A DNA stretch of 64,000 nucleotides, taken from positions 1-64,000 of the forward strand of contig NZ_JAFBIO010000002.1 in NCBI RefSeq assembly GCF_021531255.1, written 5' to 3'. The notes beneath the pieces were generated by a model. That model did not search any database. It saw nothing but the letters and a program-made list of their open reading frames with translations, and had not been told where the DNA came from. Below are positions 16,715-45,810 of the stretch, in pieces. The DNA is from Allofournierella massiliensis. GTDB taxonomy: Bacteria; Bacillota; Clostridia; Oscillospirales; Ruminococcaceae. The position numbers were made by a program, and so were the translations under genes. How positions within the stretch are numbered: the stretch's first letter is position 1; each line of letters starts with the position of its first letter.

Positions 16715-16805
16715 AACAGGCACCTCCGTTCAGCGGATGTCGAGGGAAAAATCTCTTATCATCATCATACTATATTCTGCCCCCAAATGGAATTGGGCGG
16801 CCGCC

Positions 16806-16834
16806 TTGACAAGCCCCGGCTCCAAAGGTATACT
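16806..16834 (+). promoter_or_regulatory. Promoter of the ABC transporter leader
   Basis: Consensus TTGACA (16806-16811), 17 bases, TATACT (16829-16834). Transcription would start near 16841, leaving a leader of about 290 bases before the coding region. Confidence 0.85.
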
Positions 16835-16840
16835 GAACCC

Positions 16841-17033
16841 TGACAAAATAATCTTTCTGTGCGCCGGAAGGGCATTCCTGACGGCAAACAGCGTTCTGAT
16901 ACAGCGGCTGCCGGCAGGATTCCGGCGGCCCTTCCATCCTCTTTGTTCTGACGGTACCGGGGCTCCGGGCCAAAAGGCAGGGAAAAGCAAGGTGCCTTTC
17001 TCTCTCCCTGCCCTTTGGGCGGGGAGTTTTTTT
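16841..17033 (+). promoter_or_regulatory. Riboswitch-like attenuated leader of the ABC transporter
   Basis: The 5' half folds as nested helices: 16862-16869 with 16920-16927 (CGCCGGAA/TTCCGGCG) and 16877-16886 with 16909-16918 (one mismatch). An alternative perfect helix, 16866-16873 with 16928-16935, shares bases with the first, so they exclude each other. Downstream, 16976-16983 (GGCAGGGA) can pair with 17005-17012, which would break a strong terminator stem (17004-17013 with 17017-17026). I could not assign it to a known riboswitch class; no B12 box, TPP or SAM signature is visible. Control of metal-complex uptake is inferred from the gene it precedes. Confidence 0.65.
17004..17033 (+). 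terminator. Leader terminator (attenuator) before the ABC operon
   Basis: CTCCCTGCCC and GGGCGGGGAG form a 10-bp stem with a TTT loop and seven T residues after it, about 97 bases before the coding start. Being upstream of the gene, it acts as an attenuator. Confidence 0.85.
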
Positions 17034-17129
17034 CCGGCCCAGAAGAAAAGCAGGTATGGCGGGACGGCGCAGCGCACCCGCAAAGAAAGGGCAGGGCCCG
17101 GTGCGGAAAAAAGAGAGGAAATTGACAGT

Positions 17130-18308
17130 ATGATGAAAAAACGTATCCTTGCGGCGCTGCTTTGCCTGTGCCTTGCGGCGGGCCTGCTGACCGGCTGCGG
17201 CAATTCCCCCGCCTCCGGTTCTCAGCCTGCTTCTTCCGCCCCGGCTTCTTCCGTGCCTGCTTCCAGCGCTGCCGGCCAGGGCGAGACCCGCACCATCACC
17301 GACCATGCCGGCCGGCAGGTGGAGATCCCCGCCCAGGTGGACCGGGTGGTGGTCACCGATATCTACCCGCTGCCCTCGGTGCTCAGCGTCTTTTTGGGCA
17401 GTGCCGAGAAGATCGTGGGCATCCACCCCATGAGCATGAGCGCGGCCCAGACCGGCACCCTGGGGGAAATCTTCCCCGAGATTCTGGAAGCCGATACCAG
17501 CTTTATGACCGGCACCGAGCTGAATGTGGAATCCCTGCTGGCTCTGGAACCGGATCTGGTTTTCTGCAACGCCTCCAATGCTGAGGAGATGGAAGCCATC
17601 ACCAATGCGGGCATCCCCTGTGTGGGTGTAGCCACTGGCAAGTGGAACTTTGACATTCTGGAAACCTATGCCCAGTGGACGGCCCTGCTGGGTGAAATCT
17701 TCCCAGAGAGCGACAAGAGCGCCCTGGTGCGGGAGTATTCCGAAGAGGTCTACCAGGAGGTACAGGACAAGGTGGCTGATCGGGAAGAGGGCAGCAAGAA
17801 AAAGATCCTTTTCCTCTATCAGTATGATGAAAACACCATGGTTACTTCCAGCAGCAAGTTCTTCGGCCAGTTCTGGTGCGAGGCAGTGGGCGGCGTGAAC
17901 GTGGCCAGCGAGGTGCCCGCCGAGACCAGCAACGCAGTGATCACCATGGAACAGGTGTACCAGTGGAACCCGGATGTGATCTTCATCACCAACTTTACCG
18001 AGTGTCAGCCCGAAGATCTTTACACCAATGCCATCAACGGGGATGACTGGAGCAGTGTGGCCGCGGTGCAGAACCAGCAGGTATATAAGATGCCTCTGGG
18101 CACCTACCGCACCTACACCCCCAGCAGCGATACCCCGCTCACCCTGCTCTGGCTGGCCCAGAAGGTCTACCCGGAAAAGTTCGCCGACCTGGACCTGAAC
18201 GCCCGGGTGAAGGAGTACTACAGCGAGATCTACGGGGTGGAGCTCACCGACGAGCAGGTGGAAGCCATGTACAACCCGCCTGCCGAGGCGGCTGCCGGCC
18301 GGGGCTGA
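17130..18308 (+). CDS. ABC transporter substrate-binding lipoprotein (iron-complex/B12 family)
   Basis: The 392-residue product has a lipoprotein signal (LLTGC, C23), a Ser/Ala/Pro-rich linker (about 24-48), then a BtuF/FhuD-type domain starting TRTITDHAGRQVEIP. The segments VESLLALEPDLVF and WNPDVIFITNF are typical of this fold. It captures a metal chelate at the cell surface and delivers it to the permease. The ligand could be a siderophore, cobamide, haem or oxyanion; the sequence does not decide. GAGAGGA precedes ATG 17130; an ATG three bases later is an alternative. Confidence 0.88.
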   Translation: MMKKRILAALLCLCLAAGLLTGCGNSPASGSQPASSAPASSVPASSAAGQGETRTITDHAGRQVEIPAQVDRVVVTDIYPLPSVLSVFLGSAEKIVGIHPMSMSAAQTGTLGEIFPEILEADTSFMTGTELNVESLLALEPDLVFCNASNAEEMEAITNAGIPCVGVATGKWNFDILETYAQWTALLGEIFPESDKSALVREYSEEVYQEVQDKVADREEGSKKKILFLYQYDENTMVTSSSKFFGQFWCEAVGGVNVASEVPAETSNAVITMEQVYQWNPDVIFITNFTECQPEDLYTNAINGDDWSSVAAVQNQQVYKMPLGTYRTYTPSSDTPLTLLWLAQKVYPEKFADLDLNARVKEYYSEIYGVELTDEQVEAMYNPPAEAAAGRG

Positions 18309-18396: not shown

Positions 18397-19401
18397 ATGA
18401 AAAAGCGGATTCTCTCCCCTGTTTTTTGTGTTCTGGGGCTGGCGGTTCTGGGGCTGGCGGCCCTCTGCCTGGGCCAGTACAGCCTGAGCCCGGCCAAGGT
18501 ATTGGCCGCCCTTTGGCCCGGAGGCTGGCCGGGGGTGAGCCTGTCGGATACGGATCTGACCGTGATCTTCAACGTGCGGCTGCCCCGGGTACTGCTGGCC
18601 CTGCTGGCGGGGGCCGCTCTCAGTGGGGCAGGGGCTGCCTTCCAGGCTGTCTTTTCCAACCCGCTGGCCACGCCGGACACCCTGGGGGTGGCCACAGGGG
18701 CCTCTTTCGGGGCGGTACTGGCCATCCTGATGGGCCTGCCCGCCCTGGCGGTGCAGGGGGCGGCCCTGGCCATGGGTCTGGGTGCGGTGGCTCTGGTCTA
18801 TCTGGTGGGGCAGGTGCGGGGCGAGCGCACTGTCCTGACCCTGGTGCTGGCGGGGCTGGTGGTAAGCAGCCTCTTTTCGGCGCTGGTCTCTTTAGTGAAA
18901 TATGTGGCCGACCCCCAAAACACCCTGCCTGCCATCACCTTCTGGCTGATGGGCAGCCTTTCGGGCACCACCCGGCGTTCCCTGGCCCTGGGCCTGCCCT
19001 TCCTGGGGGTGGGCGTGGCGGTGCTCTGGCTGCTGCGCTGGAAGCTGAACCTGCTGGCCCTGCCCCAGGAGGAAGCCCTCAGCTTGGGGGTACCTGTGAA
19101 AAAGCTGCGGGTGCTGGCGGTGGGGGCTGCCGCCCTCATCACGGCCTCGGTGGTCTCCCTCTGCGGGCAGATCGGCTGGGTGGGCCTGCTGGTGCCCCAT
19201 GCGGCCCGGATGCTGGTGGGCGGGGATAACCGGCGGCTGATCCCGGCCAGTTTTGGGCTGGGGGCGGCGTTTTTCCTGGTCATCGACACCCTGGCCCGCT
19301 GCGCCACGGCGGCCGAGATCCCGGTCTCCATTCTGACGGCGGTGGTGGGCGCGCCGCTCTTTATTGTGCTGCTGCGCAGAACAGGGGGGGCTGGGCTGTG
19401 A
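18397..19401 (+). CDS. FecCD-family ABC transporter permease
   Basis: This 334-residue membrane protein has about nine to ten helices and the FecCD hallmarks RLPRVLLALLAGAALSGAGA, FQAVFSNPLATPDTLGVATG and, near the end, GQIGWVGLLVPHAAR. It probably works as a homodimer that passes metal complexes through the membrane. GGGGAGGGATTTGCC precedes ATG 18397. Its stop overlaps the ATPase start by four bases (GTGA). Confidence 0.94.
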   Translation: MKKRILSPVFCVLGLAVLGLAALCLGQYSLSPAKVLAALWPGGWPGVSLSDTDLTVIFNVRLPRVLLALLAGAALSGAGAAFQAVFSNPLATPDTLGVATGASFGAVLAILMGLPALAVQGAALAMGLGAVALVYLVGQVRGERTVLTLVLAGLVVSSLFSALVSLVKYVADPQNTLPAITFWLMGSLSGTTRRSLALGLPFLGVGVAVLWLLRWKLNLLALPQEEALSLGVPVKKLRVLAVGAAALITASVVSLCGQIGWVGLLVPHAARMLVGGDNRRLIPASFGLGAAFFLVIDTLARCATAAEIPVSILTAVVGAPLFIVLLRRTGGAGL

Positions 19402-20189
19402 AACTGGAAGTAAGAGGGGGCAGCTTTGGCTACCCCGGCGGGCCGCCCCTTCTGCGGGGCGTGTCCTTTCAGGTGGAAGGTGGGGAGGTCCTCTCCATTC
19501 TGGGACCCAACGGGGCGGGCAAGACCACCCTGCTGCGGTGCATGCTGGGGCTGCTGAGCTGGAAGGAGGGCCAGACCCTGCTGGATGGCCAGCCCCTGGC
19601 CAACGATACCCGCCGCTGGCAGAGCATCGGCTATGTGCCTCAGCAAAAGCGGCCGACCCTGGGCTGTACCGCCCTGGAGATGGTGCTGCTGGGCCGAAGC
19701 CCCCATCTGGGCCTGTTGGCCCAGCCCACCGCCCGGGACGAGGCCCTGGCCCGGGAATGTCTGGAACGGGTGGGGGCAGAGGCCCTGGCGAACCGGCTTT
19801 GCAGCCAGCTTTCCGGCGGGGAATATCAGCTGGTGCTCTTTGCCCGGGCGCTGGCCGTGCAGCCCCGGTTTCTGGTGCTGGATGAACCGGAGGCAAACCT
19901 GGATTTTAAGAATCAGCAAAAGGTGCTGGAAGTGCTGGAACGGCTCTGCCGGCAGGAGGGCCTGGGGGCTTTGTGGATCACCCACTCCCCCCAGAACGCC
20001 CTGGCCCTGGCCGATAAGGCCCTGCTGCTGAACCGGCAGGGCGAATACCGCTTTGGCCCGGCGGAAGAGGCACTCACCGAAGAAAACCTGAGCTGGTGCC
20101 TGGAAATGCCCCTGAAACTCTGCCGGGTACAGGCTGGGGAAAAGCAGGGCTGGTGCGTGCTGCCCCTGGGCAGCCGGGAGAAAGGATGA
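19398..20189 (+). CDS. ABC transporter ATP-binding protein (FecE/BtuD type)
   Basis: The 263-residue ATPase has Walker A GPNGAGKTT, Q-loop YVPQQ, signature LSGGEYQLVLFARAL and Walker B FLVLDEPEANLD, then the switch THSPQN. It energises import by the upstream permease and lipoprotein. The start is GTG 19398 overlapping the permease stop. The last 50 residues extend past the usual ATPase core and look regulatory or simply divergent. Confidence 0.93.
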   Translation: MKLEVRGGSFGYPGGPPLLRGVSFQVEGGEVLSILGPNGAGKTTLLRCMLGLLSWKEGQTLLDGQPLANDTRRWQSIGYVPQQKRPTLGCTALEMVLLGRSPHLGLLAQPTARDEALARECLERVGAEALANRLCSQLSGGEYQLVLFARALAVQPRFLVLDEPEANLDFKNQQKVLEVLERLCRQEGLGALWITHSPQNALALADKALLLNRQGEYRFGPAEEALTEENLSWCLEMPLKLCRVQAGEKQGWCVLPLGSREKG

Positions 20190-20194
20190 GAGGA

Positions 20195-20443
20195 ATGGAA
20201 GAGACAAGAATCGCCCTGATCGGGATTCTGGTGGAAGAACCGGAATCGGTGGAACAGATGAACCGGTTGCTGCACCAGTATGCCCCTTACATCATCGGGC
20301 GAATGGGCATCCCCTACCGGGAAAAAGGGATATCCATGATCAGTGTGGCCCTGGATGCCCCCCAGCCGGTGATCAGCGCCCTTTCGGGCAAGCTGGGCAT
20401 GCTGCCCGGGGTGAGCACCAAGACTCTCTATTCCAAGACCTGA
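20195..20443 (+). CDS. TM1266-family regulator
   Basis: This 82-residue protein matches the TM1266 group (RIALIGILVEE, LLHQYAPYIIGRMGIPYREK, ISALSGKLGMLPGV), an ACT/NikR-like small fold often encoded with [FeFe]-hydrogenase maturation genes. Here it follows the ABC importer by 5 bases instead. I chose ATG 20195 because the family starts just before ETRIALIG; ATG 20186 is an overlapping alternative. Its biochemical role is unknown; sensing or regulation is inferred from fold. Confidence 0.82.
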   Translation: MEETRIALIGILVEEPESVEQMNRLLHQYAPYIIGRMGIPYREKGISMISVALDAPQPVISALSGKLGMLPGVSTKTLYSKT

Positions 20444-45484: not shown

Positions 45485-45810
45485 CGGCTGCAAAAGGCTT
45501 GCATGGCAAGCTTGTCATGCAGGCCGCGATATGCGTTGATGCGGGAGGTTGCCGTCAGAAATCCTGACGGGTTTTTCCGCGGAGTATGTCCGATCTTAGA
45601 ACCGGGCGAAAGAATTACTGAGTGCAAAGGGTTATGTTCACGGTCAGTTACTCAGCCGCGAACCAATTTCCATCTTAATTTGCCGAAGTATGTCCGGGGG
45701 AACTGCCTAGCGGTTCACCGGCTTTTCTTGTGCAAAAAGATGAAACACCCGGAACAGTGTGAAGTAGTTTATCGGCTCGCCTAAGGCACAAAATTTTCAA
45801 GGAGGCGAAA
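45485..45810 (+). promoter_or_regulatory. Structured leader of the ribosomal operon
   Basis: The 325-base leader before rpsJ has helices GGCTTGCATG/CATGCAGGCC (45496-45505 with 45516-45525), an attenuator hairpin at 45552-45577, an ACTGAGT/ACTCAG long-range pair, and further GC helices. By analogy, S10 leaders in other bacteria bind a ribosomal protein for feedback control; which protein binds here is unknown. I found no supported open reading frame in it. Confidence 0.6.
45552..45577 (+). terminator. Attenuator hairpin inside the S10 leader
   Basis: CCGTCAG (45552-45558) and CTGACGG (45564-45570) form a short stem followed by GTTTTT, a terminator shape placed about 240 bases before rpsJ. 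Confidence 0.65.

Follow-up and report, generated by a model that had tools for sequence, protein, structure and literature searches.

The window, by which we mean the whole stretch of 64,000 nucleotides of Allofournierella massiliensis DNA analysed here, contains an ABC importer operon preceded by a leader of about 190 bases. The features of the leader and of the operon are listed below.

16806..16834, forward strand: sigma-70-type promoter TTGACA-17-TATACT, 11/12 consensus positions
16857..16891, forward strand: twin-purine-loop hairpin P1, CTGT[GC]GCCG[GA]AGG(GCATT)CCT[GA]CGGC[AA]ACAG, the conserved hairpin of the leader
16906..16930, forward strand: 9-bp hairpin whose 3' side is the partner of pairing A, in a stretch missing from the aligned relatives
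16946..16977, forward strand: P2/core, a degenerate second copy, TTCTGAC...AAAAGG, which aligns with the core of the relatives' leaders
16976..16983, forward strand: antiterminator strand GGCAGGGA, sharing its first 2 nt with the 3' end of P2
17004..17033, forward strand: intrinsic terminator, 10-bp stem (17004-17026) followed by T7
17005..17012, forward strand: partner of the antiterminator within the 5' arm of the terminator
17130..18308, forward strand: lipoprotein substrate-binding protein (Peripla_BP_2), start codon placed by eye from the signal peptide
18397..19401, forward strand: FecCD-type permease
19398..20189, forward strand: ABC ATPase
20186..20443, forward strand: putative regulator of the TM1266 family (TIGR03959), closing the operon; its start codon was inferred

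A sequence-only reading of this DNA had proposed a candidate riboswitch with a terminator/antiterminator platform upstream of the importer operon, and our results support such a leader as conserved and unassigned. Its elements were recovered as described: a consensus promoter, a strong terminator, an antiterminator segment in perfect Watson-Crick complementarity with the terminator arm, and two mutually exclusive and perfect Watson-Crick pairings, A (16862-16869 with 16920-16927) and B (16866-16873 with 16928-16935). The leader is structured, the fold of 16841-17040 having an energy of -86.1 kcal/mol (z = -2.5) that was equalled in 0/200 shuffles. With a terminator 5' of the start codon and an antiterminator exclusive with it, the leader is, to judge by its anatomy, a transcription attenuator. 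The two exclusive 8-bp pairings form a modest feature when taken alone, because dinucleotide shuffling of the leader reproduced such a feature in 26 of 2000 cases, and 30 of 1277 slices of the window had it too (five of the 30 overlapping the leader itself). One short frame read by eye, a possible leader peptide, runs from GTG at 16859 to TGA at 16949-16951, and no ribosome-binding site was seen for it. The frame of the substrate-binding protein is open upstream across the whole leader (16737-18308, forward strand), probably as a by-product of high G+C content. Beyond the terminator, 17089-17096 is complementary to the terminator 5' arm (17006-17013) as well, with 8-bp matches that start at 17086-17089, and read-through RNA might therefore form an additional pairing.

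The operon was earlier described as a metal-complex importer. The Peripla_BP_2, FecCD and ABC-ATPase genes confirm an ABC importer, and the metal-complex part amounts to protein-family kinship only; no profile names a substrate for the binding protein, all NCBIfam matches being far below cut-off. The TM1266-family protein scored 109.6 bits against TIGR03959 (cut-off 60.8), which is described as 'iron-only hydrogenase system putative regulator'. A profile search of the window's genome found no match to Oxidored_nitro (PF00148). The 3' part of the operon is present in a same-genus genome (G001; G numbers denote genomes and L numbers loci), in which the contig begins inside the permease gene.

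Comparison of the window leader with Rfam 15 (covariance models, 4227 families) revealed no family at gathering score, and the T-box was likewise not matched, in agreement with the earlier failure to assign a class. At E values up to 10, the matches were sub-threshold and chance-like, the best (E 0.01) lying on the opposite strand. The leaders of relatives, with the G032 leader (L118) left out, also gave no match at gathering score; above it, the stretches scanned contained only tRNA, S10-Clostridia and FMN, all away from the leaders. Eight TM1266 loci of the class gave nothing but a tRNA gene at E values up to 0.5. Elsewhere in the window, an S10-Clostridia ribosomal protein leader is present at 45528-45609 (forward strand, 51.7 bits).

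One large survey reportedly presented 224 candidate RNAs. In the available portions of four surveys and reviews (PMC8632094, PMC11109978, PMC2864571 and PMC10043782), the word 'hydrogenase' has 0 occurrences each, and the available portion of PMC3543383 concerns Moco and cobalamin riboswitches. No title or abstract among the literature matches listed connects a riboswitch with hydE/F/G or TM1266. Since no such element appears in the literature matches listed or in the available portions of these four surveys and reviews, novelty is likely, not proven.

The leader in related genomes

Some relative of the binding protein was found in 169 of 297 family genomes, and the named genome collection contributed 26 loci. 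In 24 regions upstream of the orthologous substrate-binding gene, the window leader was not seen by eye, and in many of these regions a nitrogenase-component-like frame ends (also by eye). At one locus (L067), profiles identified the upstream genes as encoding one NifH-type protein (PF00142) and two PF00148 proteins. The leader was not seen next to the orthologous substrate-binding genes because the operon of the relatives starts earlier, and it was therefore to be sought at that upstream start. The alignment of homologous leaders, proposed earlier as a check, thus failed at first upstream of these orthologues; covariation was seen in hairpins located elsewhere (below).

A DNA search of the 297 family genomes with the leader gave only short scraps besides the window (252/297, E up to 1), the best of them being 24 nt long (E=4.9e-4), and a single-sequence model (R1) matched 1 of 396 genomes, namely its own. 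A first relative was found in G030 upstream of a nifH-like gene, with a terminator by scan and a promoter-like sequence by eye. This leader shares two aligned blocks with the window leader in the same order; an equal chain occurred in 1/2000 shuffles and 4/1147 window slices, figures that are uncorrected for the inspection of 16 leaders. The better block by itself was equalled in 112/2000 shuffles. Built on two sequences of the 3' block, model R2 gave 13 weak matches beyond its own two, and those at E 0.29 and 0.41 are located just upstream of the hydE-like gene heading the G032 and G289 clusters. The same leader was recognised by eye in G093. The hydE gene of G032 was confirmed by profile (TIGR03956, 537 bits vs 255). 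Of the 297 genomes, 45 had an R2 match at E up to 1, all but G000 and G030 at E of at least 0.008; judged by score and by the alignments of the ten best, these were taken as chance.

A third model (R3) was built from the four relatives G030, G032, G289 and G093 with the window left out. When run on 438 kb, R3 matched the window at 16857-16919 (forward strand, 29.0 bits, E=4.9e-5), a match that covers the 5' hairpin and not the core. Across 396 family genomes, R3 gave ten matches at E 1e-3 or better, four of them training leaders; new leaders heading hydE or nifH-like clusters were found in G369 and G383, one more match is located upstream of TM1266-hydE in G092, and the remaining three (below) were taken as chance. 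Beyond these ten, a match upstream of TM1266-hydG in G282 has E 0.0017. Hairpin and core are common to the leaders of G030, G032, G289, G093, G369 and G383, upstream of hydE or nifH-like genes. Terminators were seen by eye in the G032, G289, G093 and G383 leaders and less clearly in G369.

Some R3 matches were discarded. Those in G060:C18, G348 and G058 were taken as chance and those in G192, G166, G387 and G117 were rejected, all being outside hydrogenase context; G000:C11 was also rejected. The plus-strand match in L094 is the antisense of the true one. Matches in L238, L202, L252, L261, L281 and L284 were not counted as members for reasons of position, strand or poor fit, and in L252 and L284 the motif is present at another, sense-strand site. 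This R3 scan of the 396 genomes was run with stricter filters; in the window's genome it scored only 9 of 462 candidates and missed the window leader, and it is therefore no measure of absence.

At several Treponema/Spirochaetales loci (L068-L083), the substrate-binding protein has paralogues in tandem, two or three per locus; a search of six of these loci with R3 gave no leader. At L045, an inverted repeat, TGTTCCACATGGAACA, and a near copy precede a distant relative of the binding protein and resemble a DNA operator.

At L061, L067 and L094-L105, a FecCD importer shares a cluster with hydE, nifH-like and Oxidored_nitro-like genes, and the G032 cluster also contains hydF and TM1266. These clusters appear to be a nitrogenase-like system tied to hydrogenase maturation genes, with profiles run on L067, L118 and L061 only.

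Hairpin architecture, covariation and the terminator

P1 consists of a 4-bp helix flanked by two 2x2 purine-rich loops, together with an outer and an apical stem. The unit common to the relatives has the order stem A, 2x2 loop (mostly GA/AA), 4-bp stem B, 2x2 loop (RA/GA), stem C of 2-4 bp and a short loop. P1 scored 34 in the hairpin scan, the best score among 129 regions upstream of TM1266 genes being 32, and it is the only site scoring at least 28 on either strand of the whole 64 kb. Two tandem units were found by scan in G142, and other leaders seemingly have two as well, by eye; under less strict criteria, the window leader and its relatives also have two copies.

Gene-led analysis found TM1266 in 73 of 148 family genomes, 42 of 79 order genomes and 54 of 79 class genomes, with a few genomes common to the sets. 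Of 86 loci that included up to 1.5 kb on either side, 67 had a Hyd maturase gene next to TM1266. The genes point to H-cluster maturation (TM1266, HydE, HydG and HydF), with nifHDK-like and importer genes added in clusters. The 129 upstream regions comprise 73 from the family, 28 from the order and 28 from the class, the lists holding further places. Matches to R3 upstream of TM1266 and on its strand were found in G060, G142 and G074 (E 2.6e-5 to 9e-4), more weakly in G041, G126, G057, G131 and G012 (E 0.04 to 0.34), and in other families in G542, G487, G461, G411 and G476 (E 0.003 to 0.2). The hairpin scan at a score of at least 24 identified the unit on the sense strand in 25 of the 129 regions, against 0 antisense and 0.4 in shuffled sequence, under rules drawn up on leaders partly inside the test set; the other 104 regions were below 24. 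With a previous version of the scan, the counts were 18 sense, 2 antisense and 0 to 4 shuffled. With slightly laxer rules, the unit was present in 36 of the 85 regions that have a terminator in the last 180 nt, against 6 of the 44 that have none. Several further regions look variant-like by eye. Possible variant hairpins with a shared apical GAGGGTNCGTCCCGA were seen by eye upstream of TM1266 at L174 (G130), L286 (G476) and L288 (G528).

The importer had been taken as the regulated operon. That view has to be widened, as the same RNA in other Clostridia precedes TM1266-hydE-hydG-hydF operons or hydE/nifHDK-like/ABC clusters. The window hairpin fits the proposed class structurally (score 34), and its gene context, importer and TM1266 only, differs.

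Covariation was assessed most freely at stem B of sites selected by sequence only, without requiring pairing (CTGA N4 RA N8-13 GA N4 RAAG). This selection gave 20 sense and 0 antisense sites, in which the stem-B arms were paired at 3.4 of 4 positions, compared with 2.1 when arms were re-dealt among loci (maximum 2.9 in 5000). An alignment of 19 hairpins (A8; four of 23 located hairpins left out for length or incompleteness) had 95.8% of cells paired, compared with 57.6% when shuffled and at most 47.4% when slid, with changes on both sides in 10/10 pairs. In the alignment of 21 matches fitted to R3, which includes at least two non-members (antisense L094 and window 60684), 11 of 13 pairs had changed on both sides and 93.7% of cells were paired. 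The percentages of both alignments are inflated, because most rows had been selected through pairing rules or by their fit to the model. Overall, these patterns of compensating change point to a conserved structured domain in the 5' leaders.

An intrinsic terminator is located between the unit and the gene in 27 of 31 leaders with the unit. The 14 nt after stem B are, on average, more complementary to the terminator 5' arm than shuffled letters are (mean 5.4 vs 4.3, with a maximum of 5.0 in 5000 resamplings). Leaders taken singly reached p <=0.05 in 9 of the 27 and had p >0.15 in 16, clear single cases being G124, G140, G015, G074, G487 and G503.

Predicted ensembles were computed for window transcripts of increasing length. 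Mean pair probabilities of P1, A and B were 0.93, 0.01 and 0.05 for 16841-16945, and 0.70, 0.10 and 0.18 for 16841-17000; the pre-terminator transcript is predicted to hold P1, which is the conserved hairpin, and neither A nor B. The best fold of 16841-17013 combines P1 with the antiterminator (-63.7 kcal/mol, against -62.3 with A and -60.9 with B), at predicted probabilities of 0.82 and 0.97, respectively, and forming P2 in this transcript gives -56.6, or 7 kcal/mol worse than the antiterminated fold. The complete leader (16841-17033) favours the terminator over the antiterminator (-77.7 vs -72.3, both with P1), with a terminator probability of 0.87 and P1 down to 0.30. Its best single fold (-78.8) contains neither P1 nor the terminator, and B with the terminator (-77.6) equals P1 with the terminator (-77.7). 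In the transcript seven bases longer (16841-17040), P1 has a probability of 0.00 and the terminator is kept. As P1 is lost in the complete leader, a switch would act during transcription.

Proposed class, rival explanations and meaning

The comparison establishes a covarying hairpin located ahead of a terminator in the leaders of these genes; it also shows that the 3' flank of the hairpin and the terminator 5' arm are, on average, more complementary than shuffled letters. From these sequence comparisons we consider it likely that the leader belongs to an undescribed class of cis-acting, transcription-attenuating RNAs, whose usual targets would be the [FeFe]-hydrogenase H-cluster maturation operons (TM1266, hydE, hydG, hydF) and the hydE/nifHDK-like/ABC-importer clusters of Clostridia. 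At its core the class would have one hairpin or two in tandem, in each of which a 4-bp helix lies between 2x2 purine-rich loops set back to back (mostly GA/AA for the first, RA/GA for the second). In the proposed mechanism, an effector would stabilise the terminator-proximal hairpin and thereby bar its 3' flank from acting as antiterminator; with this flank sequestered, the terminator would form and the operon would be off. When the effector is absent, the flank would pair with the terminator 5' arm and transcription would go on. In the window, an effector that stabilises P2 would favour termination, the direction being our inference, and the leader would drive the importer and TM1266. Since the same RNA precedes hyd maturation, hydE and nifHDK-like clusters, the signal is expected to be connected with maturation of the [FeFe]-hydrogenase cofactor. 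The effector could be a metabolite, a metal or a cofactor intermediate belonging to H-cluster assembly. Alternatively, an RNA-binding protein could play this part, TM1266 being, by its position, the obvious candidate.

The nature of the effector separates the two main explanations. In one of them the twin-loop hairpins would be an aptamer for a small molecule or metal, whether the imported compound itself or one connected with H-cluster assembly, and its binding would favour the terminator; we give this a nearly even chance. The leader resembles transcription-terminating riboswitches in its promoter, structured domain, adjoining antiterminator, intrinsic terminator and biosynthesis/transport operon, that is, in its expression platform. 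The targets form one biosynthetic pathway plus an importer, and the two copies per leader (in G142 and, by looser criteria, in the window leader and those of its relatives) point the same way. However, the conserved unit is small and has few fixed bases, and no Rfam family and no known ligand class is matched, in which the leader differs from those riboswitches. The label 'riboswitch' is plausible. The other explanation is a protein-bound terminator or antiterminator of the RAT/ANTAR kind, most simply with TM1266 binding the hairpins and autoregulating its operon, which we hold quite possible though somewhat short of even. The hairpin precedes TM1266 genes in 25 of the 129 regions, the window operon itself ends with a TM1266 gene, and small hairpins with two internal loops are typical protein sites. 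RAT/ANTAR hairpins are short, sometimes tandem, have internal loops and precede a terminator, and the operon here has a putative regulator gene; the purine-rich 2x2 loops around 4 bp are a difference. Against a protein effector stands the G030 leader, which heads a nifH-like operon that has no TM1266; the sole TM1266 match of G030 lies 5.8 kb upstream, from where TM1266 could act only in trans. We know of no RNA-binding activity of TM1266. Its single sequence match among solved structures, 2NZC, is named just 'Hypothetical protein', and among the literature matches listed, in their available text, no mechanism was found behind the label 'putative regulator'.

Two further explanations fare worse. 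Alternation of A and B in response to a ligand, the switch originally suggested for this leader, is now highly improbable. Both pairings are perfect, exclusive and within 1.4-2.8 kcal/mol of the best fold in the transcripts to 16945 and 17013, and B with the terminator ties with P1 and the terminator in the complete leader. Yet none of the transcripts folded gave A a pair probability above 0.10 or B one above 0.18, their 3' partners are in an insert that has no counterpart in the four aligned relatives, and both would destroy the conserved hairpin. The strength of the terminator would also suit a leader with no regulation, in which a constitutive terminator or a small RNA gene stands ahead of the importer by chance; this we regard as improbable, given a conserved hairpin, same-strand placement and a terminator ahead of the same genes in many families.

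Among described elements, the Moco riboswitch candidate (PMC2408646), as far as the available part of that paper describes it, is similar as a leader RNA over metal-cofactor biosynthesis genes and related transporters, but the window leader has no Moco match. The weak riboswitch candidate associated with nifV in Geobacter is likewise, in the available portion of its report (PMC11109978), the leader of a nitrogenase-cofactor gene; it differs in having four representatives from one genus, a Shine-Dalgarno sequence inside the structure and a different gene.

To our knowledge, little is known about the regulation of H-cluster assembly. Returning to the proposed class, we lean towards the view that the class is widespread among Clostridia, has not been described before, and senses the state of H-cluster assembly (an intermediate, iron supply, or TM1266 as a reporter) and sets expression of maturases, nitrogenase-like proteins and importers by termination, the window being the importer case that has no nitrogenase-like partners. 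If this is true, the window importer would be identified as part of the same cofactor economy. The leader common to hydEGF operons, nitrogenase-like clusters and a FecCD importer offers a concrete RNA for tests with ligands or TM1266, and it ties an importer that has no named substrate to hydrogenase cofactor metabolism.
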